From: a virus
Reading direction: 5' to 3' (one strand)
Virus record (IMG/VR): IMGVR_UViG_3300030328_000829
Location: 1-30,917 of that record
DNA length: 30,917 nucleotides
Shown: piece by piece, positions 70 to 30,917 of the stretch
Layout: each line of letters opens with the position of its first letter
Position numbering within the stretch: position 1 is the first letter of the stretch
Position numbers and translations under genes: made by a program
Notes under the pieces: model-generated
Databases searched by the model: none
The model's input: the letters and a program-made list of their open reading frames with translations, nothing else
Told to the model about the DNA's origin: nothing

Positions 70-176
70 GATTCACATTCCTCAGGCGTTTCCAACCCAC
101 AAAAGATTTCCTCATCGACAAAGGGATCAACCCACTCTCCCATAGCCTCTTCGGGGACATCACTCCACGGCCTCAT
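60..176 (-). CDS. Small acidic protein with a CxxC pair, 38 aa
   Basis: This short gene begins inside the last codons of the terminase small subunit gene. Its ATG at 176 has a strong ribosome site, AGGAGG at 183-188 on the complement, six bases away, which is the main reason to believe it. The product is acidic and ends in ECESCG, so it has one CxxC pair that could hold half a metal site or make a disulfide. No family is recognised. Its end overlaps the GTG start of the next frame, which suggests translational coupling through the start of the late operon. Confidence 0.6.
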   Translation of the reverse strand: MRPWSDVPEEAMGEWVDPFVDEEIFCGLETPEECESCG

Positions 177-630
177 CAGCAACCTCCTCAGGTTTAAACT
201 CGGCCACCAAAGCCTCCAACTCCTCAGCCAGCTCTAAATCAGACAAACTAGACGCATCCTTATCCTCAACAACAAGACGACGCTTCGGCGTAAACTTCTC
301 AATATACTGCAAATACAAAGACGCAGCCTTCACATCACCATCAGCAGCCTGAGCAAACAAAGCATCAATCACAGTCTGAGTACGCTCAGGGTGAATATTC
401 AACTCAGCAGCACGACGATCCCACTCCTTCATAAACCTAGGATCACGCTTAATACGACGCAAAGAATCCTCATGTACACCGTTTAAATCAGCCCACTCGT
501 ACTGGTGTTTCGGGTCACGTTGCGGACCCTGCAACAACCAATCCAATAAACTCTTCCACATGTCAGGCATGAGTTTCTCACCCGTGTCTGGGTCTACTCT
601 CCAGCCTTTACCGCCACCATTTTTTGGCAT
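160..630 (-). CDS. terS: Terminase small subunit, 156 aa
   Basis: Probable DNA-recognition subunit of the packaging motor, which binds the phage genome and presents it to the large ATPase/nuclease subunit. Residues about 43-75 (motif YEWADLNGVHEDSLRRI, then RFMKEWDRR) look like the helix-turn-helix region of small terminases, followed by a helical middle and an acidic C-terminus. The start at 630 is chosen over 642 because GGAGG at 636-640 (complement) sits five bases before it. It is the first gene leftward from the control region, so it probably opens the late operon. The large subunit is not in the window. The assignment rests on pattern and position, not on an alignment. Confidence 0.7.
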   Translation of the reverse strand: MPKNGGGKGWRVDPDTGEKLMPDMWKSLLDWLLQGPQRDPKHQYEWADLNGVHEDSLRRIKRDPRFMKEWDRRAAELNIHPERTQTVIDALFAQAADGDVKAASLYLQYIEKFTPKRRLVVEDKDASSLSDLELAEELEALVAEFKPEEVADEAVE

Positions 631-658
631 ATTAACCTCCATAATAAAGTTAAGGAAC

Positions 659-762: not shown

Positions 763-899
763 TTAGAAACAAGCTAGCTCACGTTCATAGTACGTAAAAG
801 AAACCAGGTTAAAAAGTATTACGCATTTAGGGATGCTTATCTATACATATGTGTCCGCCCAACCCCCCACCCCATTGCCCCTCCCACCCAACTTCTTAC

Positions 900-935: not shown

Positions 936-1040
936 CAGCTGTTAGCCAGCTGGCTGGACTTTTACAGCTGTTCTTGCAGCTGTCACTAGTTGCCAACAGC
1001 TGTCACCAGCTGGCACCAGCTGTTAGCCAGCTGGCTAGAC
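936..1040. repeat. Array of eight CAGCTG sites (iteron-like)
   Basis: The palindromic hexamer CAGCTG begins at 936, 947, 965, 977, 997, 1007, 1017 and 1028, giving spacings of 11, 18, 12, 20, 10, 10 and 11 bases, mostly close to one or two helical turns. The outer two pairs form 24-bp near-identical copies (936-959 and 1017-1040, one mismatch). CAGCTGTCAC also repeats at 977 and 997. Such phased arrays are typical of replication-initiator or partition-type binding regions. The binding protein is not identified. Confidence 0.8.
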
Positions 1041-1086
1041 ATTTTTCTCCGATCGGACATCTAAAAAAGAACTGGACTATTTAACG

Positions 1087-1122: not shown

Positions 1123-1152
1123 TTGACCTAACTGGAATAGTGGGTGTAAGAT
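1123..1152 (+). promoter_or_regulatory. Sigma70-like promoter
   Basis: A -35 hexamer TTGACC (1123-1128) is followed after 18 bases by a -10 hexamer TAAGAT (1147-1152). It points at the gene beginning at 1291 and leaves a leader of about 130 bases containing the GAGAGAGTCTCTC palindrome (1229-1241). Confidence 0.5.
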
Positions 1153-1290
1153 TTACTTAGTGGGTTATTGCTGAACGTCTGGCAAAGACTCACGAGCGTA
1201 TATTGAAAACTAAATAGAGGATTTAGCTGAGAGAGTCTCTCGGCTTTCTCCGTTGAATTTTCTATTTCTAAAAAGAAATGAGGATAAGAA

Positions 1291-1956
1291 ATGACAACAG
1301 ATAAAAAAGCTAAATCGGTAGAACGGGTTTTACCCGTTAAGGCAGATTGTGTCGAGCTTGCGAAACTAGCTACAGATTCTCGTAAGGGAATCTGGAAAAT
1401 GGGCGATGCCCTCAAAACGTTAGTTCCACAAGTCGGTATCCATTGGAAACAATTAGACGGGGAAAAAGCATCAGAGGCAAAAGCCTTTGAGGCGGTTTCT
1501 CTTTATGTCGGAATTGCGCCTACTACTCTCAAGGCATATCGCAATACTGCGATCGCTTTTAAAGTGGAAGATCGCAATATGGATATAAATTTTTCCATCT
1601 ATAAAGAATTAGCATCGCTGGCAAATACTAAAGGTCAGTACGCTAAAACTATTAAATGGATAAATTCTAATCCGACAGCTACTGCTGAAGATGCTAAAAA
1701 CCATCGCAAGGCAATTAACGGTTCTTTAGAACCTGTAATCACCAACGGAACTGATCCAGCGCCTAGCGTTGAAAGTTCCAGCGATGATGGTACGACACCT
1801 AATGCAACCGCTACAGATGTAGAGGGAACATTGGAGATGTTAAATTTAGCTACTGCCACTATTGTTAATAATCGTGACCTTTTTGTAGATCACGAAAATG
1901 TAATAATGGCAGCGGTTAACAAGTTAGCTACTGATTTAGTACCTGTTAAAAATTAA
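1291..1956 (+). CDS. Putative DNA-binding regulator, 221 aa
   Basis: Not recognised as a named family. Residues about 66-90 (FEAVSLYVG-IAP-TTLKAYRNTAIAF) read as helix, turn and recognition helix. The C-terminal third (about 145-180) is a Ser/Thr/Asp-rich linker, followed by a short helical tail. A GAGGA ribosome site precedes the ATG. The gene stands alone: own promoter at 1123-1152, strong intrinsic terminator at 1965-1992, and identical GATCTATGTAGATC palindromes on both sides (1087 and 2010). This suggests an autoregulated early or immunity-type regulator, or an initiator acting on the adjacent CAGCTG array. Its codons look more A/T-ending than those of its neighbours. The role is inferred from layout. 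Confidence 0.6.
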   Translation: MTTDKKAKSVERVLPVKADCVELAKLATDSRKGIWKMGDALKTLVPQVGIHWKQLDGEKASEAKAFEAVSLYVGIAPTTLKAYRNTAIAFKVEDRNMDINFSIYKELASLANTKGQYAKTIKWINSNPTATAEDAKNHRKAINGSLEPVITNGTDPAPSVESSSDDGTTPNATATDVEGTLEMLNLATATIVNNRDLFVDHENVIMAAVNKLATDLVPVKN

Positions 1957-4892: not shown

Positions 4893-5297
4893 ATGGAGCT
4901 AGAAGGAGAAGTAAGTATCTGTATTGATGAGATACTCAATGTCTCTATGGAGTTGGACACTGAAAGGTTAGCTGAAGAGTTAGCCATAGAGCACAACTTT
5001 GTAGATGATGAAGTCATGAGAGAGTTTTTCTATTCTCATATAGAAGACTCAGTTCAAGATGAAATAGCGGGAGTGAGTCTGGAAGTGTCAGATAATACTG
5101 ATGCCATAGATGACTTGCGTGTACAAGTTGAAGGGTTAGAACCTGATAACAACTATGTGCGGATCAATGATCTACGCACAATCATACGTGAAGAGATAGC
5201 AGCTGCATTAAGTGCCGCTATTAATCACACTAATAGAGGCAGGATGTCGATGTCCGAGTGGGCACGAGAAGAGAAAGGGATGATAGATGGGCGCTAA
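4893..5297 (+). CDS. Hypothetical acidic coiled-coil protein, 134 aa
   Basis: The product is acidic and mostly helical. Residues about 50-95 (EIAGVSLEVSDNTDAIDDLRVQVEGLE and onward) show the heptad-like spacing of a coiled coil, as seen in small phage scaffold-like or oligomerising proteins. The C-terminus (MSMSEWAREEKGM) is amphipathic. There is no Cys and no catalytic motif. It begins six bases after the GP88-type gene and overlaps the next gene by 11 bases. Function unknown. Confidence 0.7.
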   Translation: MELEGEVSICIDEILNVSMELDTERLAEELAIEHNFVDDEVMREFFYSHIEDSVQDEIAGVSLEVSDNTDAIDDLRVQVEGLEPDNNYVRINDLRTIIREEIAAALSAAINHTNRGRMSMSEWAREEKGMIDGR

Positions 5298-5598: not shown

Positions 5599-6345
5599 AT
5601 GACGTTTTATTTAGGTACACACGAACCACATTGGTTACGTGACACAGACGTACCATTATTTATATCTCGTAGACGATTAGACAGACTGAAGAAACTTCCA
5701 GTAGCTCTATGCAACTGGTCTTTGGACAGCGGAGGGTTTACTGAGCTACACCAGTATGGAGGCTGGCAACTATCTGCTAAAGACTACGCATCTAAAGTTA
5801 AAAGATATGTAGATGAGATAGGCAATTTAGATTGGGCAGCTCCGCAAGATTGGATGTGTGAAACAACTGCAATAAAAAGTACAGGCTTAACAGTAGAAGA
5901 ACACCAAATCTTAACTGTTCAAAACTTTTTAGAGTTAAGACAGTTGCTCGGCACGATTGTTGTACCTGTACTGCAAGGATGGGAGTACGACGATTACCAT
6001 AAGTGTGTAGAAATGTATGATAAAGCAGGGGTTGATCTTTCTTCTGAACCTACCGTTGGGTTGGGTTCTGTTTGTAGACGCAATGCTTTAAAAGAAATCA
6101 CCCATATTATTACGAGCCTTCAACCTCTTAAACTGCATGGGTTTGGTGTTAAGGGTGACGGTTATAAAGCTAACTTTCATAAGTTAGTTAGTGCTGATTC
6201 AATGGCTTGGTCTTTCGGTGCGAGGTATCAACCACCTTTAGATGGGTGTACTCACAAGACTTGTGCTAATTGTAAACACTTTGCTTTGTTATGGAGAGAA
6301 AAAATGTTAAACAAATTAAAGGAGGTGAGAAGTGAGGAAAGTTAA
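5599..6345 (+). CDS. dpdA: DpdA-like 7-deazaguanine DNA transglycosylase, 248 aa
   Basis: Member of the phage DpdA branch of the tRNA-guanine transglycosylase superfamily, which exchanges guanine in DNA for a 7-deazaguanine base such as preQ0. Visible motifs in order: FYLGTHEPHW (3-12), LDSGGF (42-47, like the DSGGF of TGT), PQDWMCE (82-88), VPVLQGW (122-128), GLGSVCRR (154-161), LHGFGVK (179-185) and SADSMAWSFGAR (198-209), whose D200 is the likely nucleophile. C217, C222 and C225 with the following His resemble the TGT zinc site. GGAGG precedes the ATG. No queuosine-pathway gene (folE, queC, queD, queE) is visible in the window, so the base would come from the host or from genes outside. 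Confidence 0.85.
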   Translation: MTFYLGTHEPHWLRDTDVPLFISRRRLDRLKKLPVALCNWSLDSGGFTELHQYGGWQLSAKDYASKVKRYVDEIGNLDWAAPQDWMCETTAIKSTGLTVEEHQILTVQNFLELRQLLGTIVVPVLQGWEYDDYHKCVEMYDKAGVDLSSEPTVGLGSVCRRNALKEITHIITSLQPLKLHGFGVKGDGYKANFHKLVSADSMAWSFGARYQPPLDGCTHKTCANCKHFALLWREKMLNKLKEVRSEES

Positions 6346-6877: not shown

Positions 6878-7079
6878 AGACAATAAAGAGTTAACAGTTG
6901 AACACTTCTACTCTGCCATCAACCCGAAGGCAGTACTAGGAGTGCTCGACTTGTTGCATGACATAAGGAACTTGATCGACTCATACCTTACAGATATGCA
7001 ACAGTTGATCATTGAAGTAACAGGAGCAGAGGAAGCAGAGAATGTAACCAAGCTGCACATACCAGGAAAGGATAAGTAA
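6870..7079 (+). CDS. Hypothetical helical protein, 69 aa
   Basis: Starts within the end of the preceding gene and ends on a TAATG junction with the next one. The product looks all-helical (FYSAINPKAVLGVLDLLHDI, then LIDSYLTDMQQLIIEV), with regularly spaced Leu and Ile that could make it dimerise. No motif points to a function. Confidence 0.7.
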   Translation: MSEDNKELTVEHFYSAINPKAVLGVLDLLHDIRNLIDSYLTDMQQLIIEVTGAEEAENVTKLHIPGKDK

Positions 7080-7558
7080 TGCACATATCTTCAACACTGA
7101 TAGAGCAGGCGACACGACCACACCCACAGGAGCAAACTAAACTCCGCAGAGGCGTGAAGACTGACAAGTCTTTAGCCGTGTACGAATTAGCAAGAGCGTG
7201 TATTGACCAGCCCAGCCATCCGTTGAGGTTAGCGGATGAGAAGCTGATGTTTAAAACTAAACGAGGAGCTATTGAGTACACTTCCCAGCTTCGTATAGGT
7301 AAACGTAAAACTTTGATACACGCCTTGGAAGATACAAGGATGACAGACCGTGGGCATTTCAACGTGTGGGTTGAAAGCTTCCTAGTCGGCAGGTACACCA
7401 TAGGGTTGGAGTACATCAGCGACTATGACGAAGTGGAGTTGAAGAAGAAAACTCCTGTCACATACATGGGTCAACCAACAGAAGAAGCAGCTCTCAGAGC
7501 AGCCACGGATCACGAACTAGGGCATCGTGACATCGAAGTAGGTGAGTGGTTAGACTGA
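7079..7558 (+). CDS. Hypothetical protein, 159 aa, last gene of the early operon
   Basis: Starts on a TAATG junction. The product is mixed alpha/beta and basic in its first half (RRGVKTDKSLAVYELARACID). It has a central strand-rich part (GHFNVWVESFLVGRYTIGLEYISDYDEVELKKK) and an acidic C-terminus containing DHELGHRD. The HExxH-like look of that stretch is not a true zinc-protease motif. No family is recognised. An inverted repeat at 7565-7610 follows the stop and probably ends the operon. Confidence 0.7.
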   Translation: MHISSTLIEQATRPHPQEQTKLRRGVKTDKSLAVYELARACIDQPSHPLRLADEKLMFKTKRGAIEYTSQLRIGKRKTLIHALEDTRMTDRGHFNVWVESFLVGRYTIGLEYISDYDEVELKKKTPVTYMGQPTEEAALRAATDHELGHRDIEVGEWLD

Positions 7559-7564
7559 GCATCG

Positions 7565-7610
7565 GGAGGGTGAGTGAAGTCTTCCCTCCTTTCTTCTTTG
7601 CTCACCCTCC
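7565..7610 (+). terminator. Possible terminator stem-loop
   Basis: A perfect 10-bp inverted repeat, GGAGGGTGAG (7565-7574) and CTCACCCTCC (7601-7610), spans a pyrimidine-rich 26-nt loop. It starts seven bases after the operon's last stop. There is no T run after it, so an intrinsic terminator is plausible but not classical. Confidence 0.45.
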
Positions 7611-7640
7611 TACCTCCATCCACCACTGAAATAAATTATT

Positions 7641-7649
7641 TGTTATACT
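7641..7649 (+). promoter_or_regulatory. Extended -10 promoter candidate
   Basis: TGTTATACT matches the extended -10 form TGnTATAAT except for one base. It lies about 100 bases before the nuclease gene, in the only sizeable gap of the second plus-strand block. No good -35 is seen, as expected for an extended -10 promoter. Confidence 0.45.
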
Positions 7650-7677
7650 GGCTGCTAGCAGGCAGGCAAAGCTAGGA

Positions 7678-7714
7678 GGCACACCCCTTAAAGGGTGTGC
7701 CGCTAGCTACTAGC
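7678..7714. repeat. Stem-loop plus copy of the 741-754 repeat
   Basis: A 9-bp inverted repeat GGCACACCC/GGGTGTGCC (7678-7686 and 7693-7701) with a CTTAAA loop is followed directly by CGCTAGCTACTAGC (7701-7714). The same 14 bases occur at 741-754, where they also abut a stem-loop. The arrangement of hairpin followed by this 14-mer is thus present in both control regions. Confidence 0.7.
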
Positions 7715-7750
7715 TAGGGAGATAGAATTATTAACGAGAACCATTCGTAC

Positions 7751-8590
7751 ATGGATGGCAAGTGGCATCACATTTGGCATCAATCTGATCTTAAAACTTT
7801 TGAGATGTGTCCTGAACGGGCACGAAAAATATGGGCAGGTGAAGTGTCAGACCCTGAGTCTGATGCGGCTGTACTTGGAACAGCATGCCATAACGCTGTT
7901 GAAAGACTTCTTCTTCCCGCCGACCCTGAATCTTATGATCATTGTTACCCAGTGGAACGATGCGAAGAGTCTTACGATTTGTTGCACGACTACTTCGAGC
8001 AGGAACTAACAGAGCTGTCTCCCGCTATTGAGAAGTGGAACAGTTACGGTTCAGTGGACAAGATGAGGAGCATGGGTACCAGCAAACTTGATGCCTGGTA
8101 TGAGGAGATTTACAACGGGTTGACACCGATGCACGTCGAGTTGCCTTTCAAAAAATTGTTGTTTGAAGATGATGAGAGGGTCGTTCACATGGAGGGACGG
8201 ATCGACCTGATAGATAGCAACCTTGGTATCGTCGATTGGAAATTCCCTAAGAGGGATTACACGAGAGACAAATGGCAGTACGACAGGTGGGACGTTCAGT
8301 CCACTGTGTACTCTTGGGCTGTTGATCAGATGAAGGGGGAATTGAAAAGAGATTTTGAAGAACACGCTATGACTTTCTATGTCGTACATGGTAAGTCAGG
8401 TGTGTCGCAGATGAGAATAGATCGTTCGCCTCAGGACTGGGAGTTCCTGAAGCGCAAAGTCGAGGCGTTGAGTCGTCTCGTGGAACGTTCAGACATGGAA
8501 GTCTGGACGTTGAATGATGCTGGCTGGTGGTGCTCCGAGAAGTGGGCACCCTGCTGGCACTTATGCAAAGGAAAAGAAACATATGGATAA
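7751..8590 (+). CDS. Cas4/RecB-like PD-(D/E)XK nuclease with Cys cluster, 279 aa
   Basis: A DNA exonuclease or end-processing nuclease of the Cas4/AddB-like group. Visible: SDLKTFEMCPERA (12-24) with C20, GTACHNAVE (43-51) with H47, GRIDLID (149-155) with D152, VDWK (161-164) with the D-x-K pair, QSTVY (183-187) as motif QxxxY, and C-terminal C261, C268 and C272, which with C20 match the four-Cys iron-sulfur site of Cas4-type nucleases. There is no CRISPR array or cas1 nearby, so a role in phage recombination or replication is likely. The ATG at 7751 lacks a strong ribosome site. An upstream non-standard start cannot be excluded, since the frame is open back to 7718. First gene of the replication block; overlaps the next by eight bases. 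Confidence 0.85.
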   Translation: MDGKWHHIWHQSDLKTFEMCPERARKIWAGEVSDPESDAAVLGTACHNAVERLLLPADPESYDHCYPVERCEESYDLLHDYFEQELTELSPAIEKWNSYGSVDKMRSMGTSKLDAWYEEIYNGLTPMHVELPFKKLLFEDDERVVHMEGRIDLIDSNLGIVDWKFPKRDYTRDKWQYDRWDVQSTVYSWAVDQMKGELKRDFEEHAMTFYVVHGKSGVSQMRIDRSPQDWEFLKRKVEALSRLVERSDMEVWTLNDAGWWCSEKWAPCWHLCKGKETYG

Positions 8591-27234: not shown

Positions 27235-27645
27235 TTAATTGAAAACCGAGTTAGCGATTATATTGTCCTGATCGTCCCAGACTGAGCCTGTGATATCAGA
27301 AGTTAAAGCTACAGTTCCAGTCGCATCAGGCAATGTTATAGTCCTGTCAGCCGTTGGTCCTGCTGCTTTTAAAAAAGTTTCATAATCATCAGCGGATGCG
27401 CCTTCAAATCCAATCCACGAATCTACACCTTGTAATTCAATATTGTTATGAAATTTAGATAATCCAGTAAAAACAGTAAGTTGATCTACAGTTAAATTAC
27501 CAGCTACATTTACAGTGGTTCCACTAGCACCCAAAGTAGGTGTTGCTGCTACCCATGCCTCAATATCATCAAAGTTCTGATTCATGTCGGCAGCAACTAT
27601 TGTTGTTCCTGCCGAGAAACTATTAGTGACAGCAAGAGCGCCCAT
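27235..27645 (-). CDS. Tail fibre shaft-like protein, 136 aa
   Basis: Contains the fibre signature ADRTITLPDATGTVALTSDI near residues 98-118, common in the stem or C-terminal region of phage tail fibres. Before it is a beta-repeat-like stretch (TVNVAGNLTVDQLTVFTGLS). The N-terminus (ALAVTNSFSAGTTIVAADMNQNFDDIEAW) resembles the anchor start of small fibres that attach to the tail. It is short for a complete fibre and may act as a linker for the adhesins downstream. AAGG lies upstream of the start. Confidence 0.7.
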   Translation of the reverse strand: MGALAVTNSFSAGTTIVAADMNQNFDDIEAWVAATPTLGASGTTVNVAGNLTVDQLTVFTGLSKFHNNIELQGVDSWIGFEGASADDYETFLKAAGPTADRTITLPDATGTVALTSDITGSVWDDQDNIIANSVFN

Positions 27646-29283
27646 TTAACGCAACCTTCTCGGATTATATGTAAACGCCATAGCGTTTATCTCCCAATGT
27701 TTGTTAGTAGTCGGACCATTAACCTTCATGGATATAGACTGCGCTGTCCCAAGTGTGGGTAAACGTATAACATCTGCTGTTAAAGAAGCTGATACAGCAT
27801 CCCAAGCTGCGTAATATGCAGAATCAGGGTCAGAATCATTCCATTTGGATGTACCCCATTTAGAGGAAGAAGCCCGACCAGTTACTGTAATTGGTATAGT
27901 TTTAGCCACTTCCGACCTGTCATAGTCTTTATAAACTTGAATACTCATGGTCATTGTTTCATCAGCTAACGTAATAAACCTTGGTTTACCCCAACGTTTC
28001 TTAGTTATAGGATCGCTTCCCACCAACCAAGGTGTAACAAAGTACGAAGTTATGTGAGTTTCAGTTGAACCCGTGTATCTGTCAGTCATACGGTCAGAGT
28101 CATCATCCAAATCAATAACTGACCCCGTGTTTGCTACACAACCGCCTAAAACTTGGGCACGTTGATTAGGTGGACGGTATGAAAGTAGTGGACCTGCATC
28201 AATATCTGATAGAACCCAAGCTCCATTTCCTTCATTTAAAGTTGGATCAAACATAAGAGTTCTGCGTGTAGTCGTAGCCCCTTCAGTCCAATCAACAGAA
28301 CAATAAAGCCTGTTGTCACCCCAAGCCAACTCAGGTGCAGTATCAAAAGTGAACTTGTTTTGCGTTATACCAGGAAACAGTTTCGTAAATAAATAAGTGA
28401 ACTGTTGCCCGTTGTATAAATAAATTCCTTCTTGAGCAGACCAAAAATAAACCCCTCCTGGTGAAACTGCTGGTGTCGAATCAGGGGTCATGCCCACTGA
28501 AGCTGACTGTAAAACAACTTCAAAAGAATCAGAATCGAAACCGAAAACTGCGTAAGTGCTGTTTGATTTAAACACAACAAGCCTGTCACCATAAGCAGCT
28601 AAACCAGTTATGTAATCACCATGTTCACCGACATCAATGTCAACATAATCTGAAGCTTCCCAGATTTCAGGATCATTCTGTTTAGACCAACGCAACCTCG
28701 ATCTATGAGCAGTGCCCGATTCGTATGTGTGAGCCACCCAAGCAAAATTGTTCCACATGGCAATATATCTACCTTGCGGCATGTTGCCTGTGGTCCCATC
28801 AAACGTCGTACCTAAATCTGTTGCAGTACCAGCTCCCCCACCAGGCCATTTAAAAGAAGGCTTATCATATGAAACAGCGTACATAACGTCATTCATTGTC
28901 ATGCCATAAACTTTAGAACCAGCAGTTCTAGCAGTCATCCCAGTGATATCAGTAAAATTACCTGAATCTATTGTCTCTCCCTGAGAGTAAGCTACCTTAG
29001 TATCATAATTAACTACCACTGCATTAGCTGTAGATAAAGTCGTAGTACCCGTAGTCAAATGGTAAGCCCACATTCCTTTAACATCCGCTGATAAAGGGGT
29101 AAGATTCCAACGATCCACACCATCACGTTGCTTAATACCACCCCTAGGGTCAACAATAACGTTCAACAAATCTGGCGACTCATTAGGAGCCAGATTGAAC
29201 TGATCGGCTCTCATGTTAAGACCGCCAGAAAAAGACTCTAAAGCGGTTAGTTTAAAATTAGATTTACGTGCGGCTGCTGCCAT
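27646..29283 (-). CDS. Tail nozzle / stabilisation protein, 545 aa
   Basis: Matches the large beta-propeller-like tail proteins that follow the adaptor in podoviruses (P22 gp10 or T7 gp12 role), closing the tail channel. Typical features are the opening FSGGLNMRADQFNLAPNESPDLLNV, the phrase DPRGGIKQRDGVDRWN, repeated strand segments with Trp and Tyr (YIAMWNNFAWVAH, RLRWSKQNDPEIW), DRLVVFKSNSTYAVFGFD, and a C-terminal KHWEINAMAFTYNPRRLR. GGGAG lies six bases before the start. It follows the adaptor gene after a three-base gap. Confidence 0.75.
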   Translation of the reverse strand: MAAAARKSNFKLTALESFSGGLNMRADQFNLAPNESPDLLNVIVDPRGGIKQRDGVDRWNLTPLSADVKGMWAYHLTTGTTTLSTANAVVVNYDTKVAYSQGETIDSGNFTDITGMTARTAGSKVYGMTMNDVMYAVSYDKPSFKWPGGGAGTATDLGTTFDGTTGNMPQGRYIAMWNNFAWVAHTYESGTAHRSRLRWSKQNDPEIWEASDYVDIDVGEHGDYITGLAAYGDRLVVFKSNSTYAVFGFDSDSFEVVLQSASVGMTPDSTPAVSPGGVYFWSAQEGIYLYNGQQFTYLFTKLFPGITQNKFTFDTAPELAWGDNRLYCSVDWTEGATTTRRTLMFDPTLNEGNGAWVLSDIDAGPLLSYRPPNQRAQVLGGCVANTGSVIDLDDDSDRMTDRYTGSTETHITSYFVTPWLVGSDPITKKRWGKPRFITLADETMTMSIQVYKDYDRSEVAKTIPITVTGRASSSKWGTSKWNDSDPDSAYYAAWDAVSASLTADVIRLPTLGTAQSISMKVNGPTTNKHWEINAMAFTYNPRRLR

Positions 29284-29286
29284 CAG

Positions 29287-29991
29287 CTACTCCCAAGAGT
29301 AGCGTAGCCGATTAGGTAAAATAACTTGGGAACGCCAACGACTTGCGTTCCGACTGTTTAACAACACAGGTTGCGGAGCTGGCATATCCTCATACCGTTC
29401 CCTAAGATTCTGCAACTCTGATAAAAATAGACCCATATATTGTGAAGCCATCTGAGGGTCTTCTTGCTGTTCATAAGCTCTTGAAATGCCGTAAGTAGCT
29501 ACAAGAATATGAAACGGAGTGGGTAAAGTCGTTGGTTCAGTACTGTCACCTGAACCAGCCCCAAAAGCCGCAGCTTCCTTATAACCTCGTACATTTATTG
29601 TCGCACCAGATGAAGGAGTTGGGTACAACCTTATGTTGTCACCCCAAAAAGACCACCACCACGGGTCACCTGAAGTACCCACATTCAATGGGTAAACCAC
29701 ATCACCTTCGTCACGACCAACAAAAGTAATGACATGATCATCGGTGCGTAACGCAGCTACTTCACGTAAACCGTTAGTAACTGACGCACCCACAGCAGCC
29801 AGCGTGTAATCTTTCTGATCGGCTACCGTTGTGAAAGTTGTTGAAACTTCCAGAAAAGGCCAACGTTTCTGACTGTAAACAATACGGTCATAACCCTCAC
29901 CTAAAAAACGATTCAACGTATCATCTGAAATGTCTGTCGAATCTATATCCACCACAGAACGGATATAAGTTCTCATTTCTGAAATTTGCAT
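29287..29991 (-). CDS. Tail adaptor (head-to-tail connector) protein, 234 aa
   Basis: The start MQISEMRTYIRSVVDIDSTD at 29991 has AAGGA five bases upstream; the longer frame from 30054 would overlap the previous gene. The N-terminal helical part with FLGEGYDRIVYSQKRWPFLE is characteristic of podovirus adaptors that bind under the portal (P22 gp4 or T7 gp11 role). It is followed by a strand region (VSTTFTTVADQKDYTLAAV) and a C-terminal helix (SQYMGLFLSELQNLRERYE). It lies between the capsid and nozzle genes, as expected. Confidence 0.78.
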   Translation of the reverse strand: MQISEMRTYIRSVVDIDSTDISDDTLNRFLGEGYDRIVYSQKRWPFLEVSTTFTTVADQKDYTLAAVGASVTNGLREVAALRTDDHVITFVGRDEGDVVYPLNVGTSGDPWWWSFWGDNIRLYPTPSSGATINVRGYKEAAAFGAGSGDSTEPTTLPTPFHILVATYGISRAYEQQEDPQMASQYMGLFLSELQNLRERYEDMPAPQPVLLNSRNASRWRSQVILPNRLRYSWE

Positions 29992-29992
29992 T

Positions 29993-30259
29993 TTATTCCT
30001 TGTGGAAGACGCATAGGTCACTGCCCGTAACGGGTCGCCCTTTGCAGGGGTCACCGCTACGAGTCAGCGCACTACACTTGGTCACCTTCTCAGGAATAGG
30101 TTTTTGCGTTACCGCAGTGTCATTAACACGAGTTACATTTCTGTTATTCGGTCCCACCGCCGCAGGGCGGGGGGAAGCGTCACGGAAATTAGTATCAGAT
30201 CTAGGTTGACCTGCTGGACGTGCCCCTGACTTATATGCGTAAGCAAATTCCCTACCCAT
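29993..30259 (-). CDS. Small zinc-motif protein, 88 aa
   Basis: The C-terminus reads CSALTRSGDPCKGRPVTGSDLCVFH, a C-x9-C-x10-C-x2-H zinc motif of the CxAxTxxGxxCxxxxxxGxxxCxxH type found in many small phage and bacterial proteins. The N-terminal 55 residues are basic, Asn/Arg/Pro-rich and probably unfolded. The start at 30259 lies two bases after the capsid gene stop; a longer frame from 30394 would overlap the capsid gene. No ribosome site is visible, so coupling to the capsid gene is likely. A role in head completion or DNA contact is only a guess. Confidence 0.7.
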   Translation of the reverse strand: MGREFAYAYKSGARPAGQPRSDTNFRDASPRPAAVGPNNRNVTRVNDTAVTQKPIPEKVTKCSALTRSGDPCKGRPVTGSDLCVFHKE

Positions 30260-30261
30260 GA

Positions 30262-30917
30262 TTAAGCAGGTGTTATACCGTAGATGTATCCTTGACGGGA
30301 ACGGTTGCTCACTGTCAAGTTTCCGTAGCAGAGAATCTGTGAGAACACAGCATCCTGGTTGGTTGGGCGCACAAACGGGGTAGGTTTGAACCATACGTCG
30401 CTGTGGGCTACCAACTGGAGATACTTGGTGTTAAGGAAATACATTTTTCCTTCACCAGCAAGAGTGCCATCAAAAGTGATTGGGCATCCCTTGAACAGAA
30501 GATTCTGGAACCCTCCGTCTGCCATATCGGTATCTGTGTAACGAATCTGTCCATCAAGGAGAGCTTCGTAAGCCTCGTACTGGCTTTGACCAGTTACGAT
30601 GATTGTTGGTTGATCGTTACCAACGGAACAGTTGTTGTACATGGTAGCCATGGAAGCAACATCTATTGCACCAGCTTGGTTAGCAACTTGTGATCTCCAC
30701 CACGAGTTGTCACCATCAGTTGCATCAATACCAGCAAAAGCGGCTGTGCCGTCATCATTGCCTAAACCGATGCAAGCTGCAAGTCCAAGCATGTCCTTGC
30801 TACCGTTACCTGTACCATTACCGAAAAGCATGGTGTTCAAGTTCTCGATAATTGTTTCCTGTGTTTGGAAGATTTTACCTTCCAACAGATCAATGATCTG
30901 TGCTTCGCCATTGTTTT
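30262..30917 (-). CDS. Major capsid protein, C-terminal part
   Basis: The open frame continues past the right edge, so at least 217 codons of a longer gene are seen (stop at 30262). The sequence has the character of an HK97-fold capsid C-terminal half: a TIIENLNTMLFGNGTG loop, NDQPTIIVTGQSQYEAYEAL, GGFQNLLFKGCPITFDGTLAG, KMYFLNTKYLQLVAHSDVWFKP, and the end QDAVFSQILCYGNLTVSNRSRQGY. It is the first late gene seen on this side, upstream of the adaptor and nozzle genes. A TTG near the edge is not the true start, because the frame is open before it. Confidence 0.8.
   Translation of the reverse strand, partial: NNGEAQIIDLLEGKIFQTQETIIENLNTMLFGNGTGNGSKDMLGLAACIGLGNDDGTAAFAGIDATDGDNSWWRSQVANQAGAIDVASMATMYNNCSVGNDQPTIIVTGQSQYEAYEALLDGQIRYTDTDMADGGFQNLLFKGCPITFDGTLAGEGKMYFLNTKYLQLVAHSDVWFKPTPFVRPTNQDAVFSQILCYGNLTVSNRSRQGYIYGITPA

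Follow-up and report, generated by a model that had tools for sequence, protein, structure and literature searches.

In a non-coding gap of a viral genome, eight copies of the palindrome CAGCTG are packed into 98 bp, which raises the question of what this array does. A preliminary description of the window (the whole 30,917-nt stretch analysed here, from the virus record IMGVR_UViG_3300030328_000829) regarded it as a candidate replication origin or partition-type site next to a putative DNA-binding gene. We analyzed the anatomy of the array, its surroundings and its distribution among related genomes in order to decide between these and other roles.

Anatomy of the array

The repeated elements are the following:
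936–1033, no strand: array of eight CAGCTG palindromes, defined by motif positions, with a helical phase of 10.15–10.2 bp and a degenerate ninth slot at 987
936–963, plus strand: left outer repeat of 28 nt, 93% identical to 1017–1044 and 81 bp apart from it
1017–1044, plus strand: right outer repeat of 28 nt, partner of 936–963

The motif positions (starts at 936, 947, 965, 977, 997, 1007, 1017 and 1028) reproduce exactly the spacings of 11, 18, 12, 20, 10, 10 and 11 bases reported before, and the outer 24-bp repeats (936–959 vs. 1017–1040) do differ at a single one of 24 positions. A tandem decamer, CAGCTGTCAC, is found within the array at 977–1033. The 250-nt interval contains 44 repeated 8-mer pairs against a mean of 1.4 in dinucleotide shuffles, none of 200 reaching 44, so that the array is more than a chance assembly. 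Fitting a period to the eight sites gives 10.15–10.2 bp (Rayleigh R = 0.92), a phasing matched by 0.18% of random placements of eight sites over the same span; since the positions fit this period, the sites share one face of the DNA. Eight of the ten helical-turn slots are perfect, one carries two mismatches (987, TAGTTG) and one is empty, a count that is partly circular as the sites had been defined by exact match. The linkers between the cores differ (TTAGC, TCAC, GCAC, TTCTTG and longer), and in five of the eight, as read from the sequence, the palindrome is at least 8 bp long.

Outside the array CAGCTG occurs only at 5200 and 23615 in the whole window, i.e. twice vs. 12.2 expected. This scarcity is compatible with the avoidance of decoy sites. 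Alternatively, it may reflect restriction avoidance, because CAGCTG is also scarce in the pooled relatives (4 observed vs. 16.6 expected, the contig L221 itself not being depleted) and palindromes in general are avoided in the window (observed/expected 0.67). The array has a strong predicted fold (z −4.5); any palindrome array would give one, and a hairpin element was set aside on that ground. An 83-aa ORF overlapping the array (833–1084) was judged spurious, and a coding repeat was rejected given the location in the gap and spacings that are not multiples of three.

Gap layout and genome context

The gap extends from 643 to 1290 and, as initially described, is non-coding and separates divergent gene sets. 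The leftward late set comprises lysis, tail and head genes; the rightward early set comprises a DpdA-like enzyme, a PD-(D/E)XK exonuclease, a DnaB-like helicase, an AEP-type primase, RusA and a sigma-like factor. The gap and its borders contain:
160–642, minus strand: small terminase subunit candidate (terS), with a weak HTH match; it precedes the large-terminase ORFs in L221
838–849, plus strand: TATCTATACATA followed by a C-rich run, kept in nearly all terS relatives; probable cos-like terminus
900–914, no strand: TGAGAATCATTCTCA, a 7-1-7 palindrome resembling a Fur/Zur box, common to the relative L006
1087–1100, no strand: GATCTATGTAGATC palindrome, kept in L005 and L006; candidate site of gp1291
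1123–1152, plus strand: sigma-70-like early promoter TTGACC-18-TAAGAT, by consensus match only
1203–1267, plus strand: boxA-like TTGAAAACTA and, after it, a long leader hairpin (1212–1267); the boxA-like part recurs in relatives
1291–1956, plus strand: gp1291, first early gene, predicted to encode a ParB/DUF3102-like helix-turn-helix protein

The array thus lies between the small terminase and the first early gene; the early promoter follows 90–190 bp downstream, and the probable genome terminus is about 90 bp (87 bp) away. The stretch 1041–1290, which also holds the early promoter and leader, has a GC content of 36%. The boxA-like element, found as TTGACAACTGA in several relatives, and the leader hairpin may serve Nus-type antitermination in the early operon. 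An Rfam search gave sub-threshold matches only. No other non-coding element of the family is as conserved as TATCTATACATA with its C-rich run (window 838–849 and relatives), a candidate terminus. Variants of TGAGAATCATTCTCA are present in L007, L009, L012 and L033, and a DtxR/IdeR-like GTTAGGCTAACCTAAC stands at the equivalent place in L016, about 300 nt upstream of terS; through such Fur/Zur- and DtxR/IdeR-like palindromes the phage gaps might be read by host metal regulators. Short repeats specific to individual phages (GCTAGC, CATATG, CATGC, AGTACT) form a second zone just upstream of terS, at 735–780 in the window and in L013, L016, L041, L061 and L070.

L221 is colinear with the window, aligning to 27560–30917, then, after 6.5 kb of its own, to 1–895 and 1080–2059. 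Since these 6.5 kb lie between the window ends, the complete genome is about 37 kb long. The additional segment carries genes for the major head protein, scaffold, portal (P22/SU10-like) and large terminase, the majority of them missing from the window; the large terminase appears split over two adjacent L221 ORFs, an ATPase part (7669–8556) and a nuclease part (6983–7672). The DpdA-family gene of the window (5599–6345, E 1e-85) suggests 7-deazaguanine modification of the phage DNA. No annotated phage record matched the window at the DNA level. The small terminase matches MAG contigs labelled Acidimicrobiaceae TMED189, Actinomycetota and Euryarchaeota, the last probably misbinned, and these labels suggest a marine actinobacterium as host.

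Comparison with related genomes

Only two syntenic relatives are known (L006 and L005/L221), both with both flanking genes: the identity of terS is 96% in L006 and L005, that of gp1291 92% in L006 and 79% in the other. Their alignment with the window retains the terS side, TATCTATACATA, GATCTATGTAGATC, the promoter region, the leader and the start of gp1291, and presents the array as extra DNA, absent from L006 and L005. Indeed, the blastn alignment of L221 is interrupted at 895–1080, around the array, and at this place the window is about 80–110 bp longer than L006. The search of related genomes proposed in the preliminary description thus recovered the flanking genes without the array in both close relatives, an outcome which that description itself had named as refuting and which largely speaks against the role proposed there. 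Because the two closest known relatives keep the surroundings and lack the array, it is a lineage-specific add-on, not a conserved origin or partition site. It may have grown by duplication, since a single L006 segment, aligned by eye, resembles the two outer repeats alike.

With array segments as exact queries, viral contigs yielded nothing but unrelated sequences in which no more than two sites cluster; neither these searches nor those for spaced CAGCTG found the array in any other contig of a collection that may lack near-identical records. Spaced CAGCTG triplets gave at least 120 matches, mostly repeats with spacings divisible by three; being consistent with coding DNA among the matches listed, they were rejected as kin of the array. 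An unrelated 123-kb viral contig (L218, 2667–2818) contains nine CAGCTG in 150 nt with spacings that are not multiples of three. Our literature search for CAGCTG arrays at phage origins found nothing.

The wider family was represented by 43 non-redundant terS-to-early intervals from small-terminase relatives and by 215 control windows. At P ≤ 0.005, 13 of the 43 intervals are repeat-rich vs. 18 of the 215 controls (Fisher p = 0.0003). Lineages possess their own motifs (GAGAATNNTTCTC in L007/L009, AGTACT palindromes in L069/L070/L079/L080, CGCGCACG in L038/L044), and none of the 43 intervals has eight copies of one palindrome.

The gp1291 protein and its candidate site

Iterative search identifies gp1291 homologues as the first early gene in about ten relatives, and sequence searches of Pfam, PHROGs and the PDB gave nothing reliable; a profile match to 3cmu (E = 0.0013) was rejected as no stretch passes on its own. 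The structure model (mean pLDDT 73; 80–94 over residues 11–140) best matches the DNA-binding domains of ParB, Spo0J and Noc, weakly (E 0.4–5), and also DUF3102 or ParB-like viral proteins, weakly but consistently. Exact copies of GATCTATGTAGATC occur at 1087–1100, 2010–2023 and 2853–2866, all in gaps of the early region, and two are conserved in L005/L006. A 14–20-bp palindrome near the early promoter or leader is present in every gp1291-bearing locus examined:
GATCTATGTAGATC: window, L005, L006
TTGCCACGTGGCAA: L013, L021, L067
TTGCCGTACGGCAA: L008, L012
CTTGTGCCACGTGGCACAAG: L009
CGGCTTTCATGTGAAAGCCG: L007

These palindromes, GATCTATGTAGATC in the window, are suggestive of being the gp1291 site instead of CAGCTG; the link is only suggestive because loci with other early genes also carry palindromes. 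The DNA-binding neighbour of the preliminary description is retained as a weakly predicted ParB-like HTH protein but is an improbable binder of the array, since L006 lacks a CAGCTG array yet encodes a 92% identical protein.

Discussion

We consider, with a probability of about one half, that the array is a lineage-specific multi-site element for a cooperative dimeric DNA-binding protein, early control being the favoured role within this general model. We infer the binding, the identity of the binder and the role alike. Each CAGCTG, often extended to an 8–12-bp palindrome, would bind one protein dimer; with whole helical turns between sites, the dimers would be aligned on one DNA face and could assemble cooperatively, much as in MetJ, ParR and other ribbon-helix-helix arrays. 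The most likely role would be to control the first early transcription after genome entry. Identical palindromes on one face, with intact cores and variable linkers, argue for a cis-acting protein-binding site, and to this extent the preliminary description is borne out, although its origin is not and its partition role is unsupported. The position between the terminus-like site and the TTGACC/TAAGAT promoter, in a family interval rich in repeats with phage-specific motifs, also counts in favour of such an element. Against it count that only one genome has the array, L006 and L221 evidently managing without it, and that no ribbon-helix-helix or other DNA-binding Pfam match was obtained among ten small early ORFs scanned.

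Known systems resemble the array in part. In the MetJ met boxes and the ParR/parC repeats of plasmid R1, tandem 8-bp palindromes or 10–11-bp repeats bind dimers side by side. The likeness resides in short sites (about 8 bp) that recur at whole helical turns, whereas here no ribbon-helix-helix gene and no ParM/ParA were recognised and the linkers are variable; to our knowledge, a CAGCTG core has not been described for either array. The stoperators of L5-like mycobacteriophages are likewise many copies of one short transcription-controlling site in an actinophage, but they are scattered genome-wide, whereas CAGCTG is rare outside its 98-bp cluster.

We slightly prefer transcription control to a type-specific replication origin, in which CAGCTG would be iterons for a phage initiator, exchanged for other iterons in relatives; this origin is the next most likely reading but in itself unlikely. 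Several regularly spaced copies of one site adjoin the 36% GC stretch 1041–1290, and L016 has, by eye, several TTGTCCACA/CTGTGG-like sequences in the same interval. Lambdoid origins similarly have several identical sites near AT-rich DNA, and their iterons differ between related phages; however, they are longer and lie inside the initiator gene, whereas the array is intergenic. Moreover, no initiator was recognised, the replication genes found being the helicase, AEP primase, exonuclease and RusA; the AT-rich stretch doubles as promoter and leader; no DnaA box (TTRTNCACA) occurs on either strand of the window; and L006 and L221 lack the array. The cumulative GC skew, suggested earlier as a check, has its minimum near the gap, but its sign tracks the direction of the genes, without a switch at 18–20 kb, where a bidirectional terminus would lie, and it was rejected as origin evidence.

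Slightly less likely again is a neutral expansion, in which slippage or recombination multiplied a short palindromic unit devoid of function. The 80–110 bp in excess of L006, the outer repeats 81 bp apart, the partial tandem decamer structure and the restriction to a single genome would all agree with it. Drift, however, would not give intact cores with diverged linkers and helical phasing including two-turn gaps; selection on the cores would leave such a pattern, eight of ten slots being perfect while the linkers vary.

We attach still less credence to a terminus or packaging element, comparable to the arrays of short repeats that adjoin the T7 terminal repeats ahead of the early promoter. 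TATCTATACATA lies 87 bp from the start of the array, short palindromes occur on the terS side too, and contig ends cluster near TATCTATACATA (eight within −50 to +25, counted by hand, some positions being estimates). In a 39,978-nt relative that ends near TATCTATACATA, the two ends overlap by 16 nt, in keeping with a cohesive-end terminus; the end overlaps of 77–98 nt in two other long contigs are of the kind left by circle assembly. On the other hand, the clustering is modest and assemblies also break at C-rich DNA, L006 and L005, which both lack the array, have a 96% identical terS, and, unlike the case of T7, the terminus here is a deduced one and the portal is P22/SU10-like, a group that includes headful packagers. 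Finally, a partition centromere or gp1291 operator is very improbable: the ParB/Spo0J/Noc matches of the gp1291 model, which would favour it, are weak (E 0.4–5), relatives lacking the array have gp1291 at 92% and 79% identity and share GATCTATGTAGATC instead, no ParA, integrase or repressor family match was found among the ORFs examined, and no ParA/ParM NTPase gene is present among the scanned window ORFs or the L221 genes filling the missing segment.

The conserved controls of the gap (TATCTATACATA, the gp1291-associated palindrome and the boxA-like leader) are now separated from the fast-changing CAGCTG array. Phages of uncultured marine actinobacteria are little understood. As a speculation to which we give a low probability, the terminus-to-early-gene interval in this family of marine actinophages could be a fast-changing identity zone, where each lineage has its own palindrome array and recognition protein, setting the specificity of early expression or replication and which co-infecting relatives share factors. 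If the array is a binding platform, it would mark a lineage-specific control switch, and the most conspicuous repeat of such a genome need not be a conserved origin.
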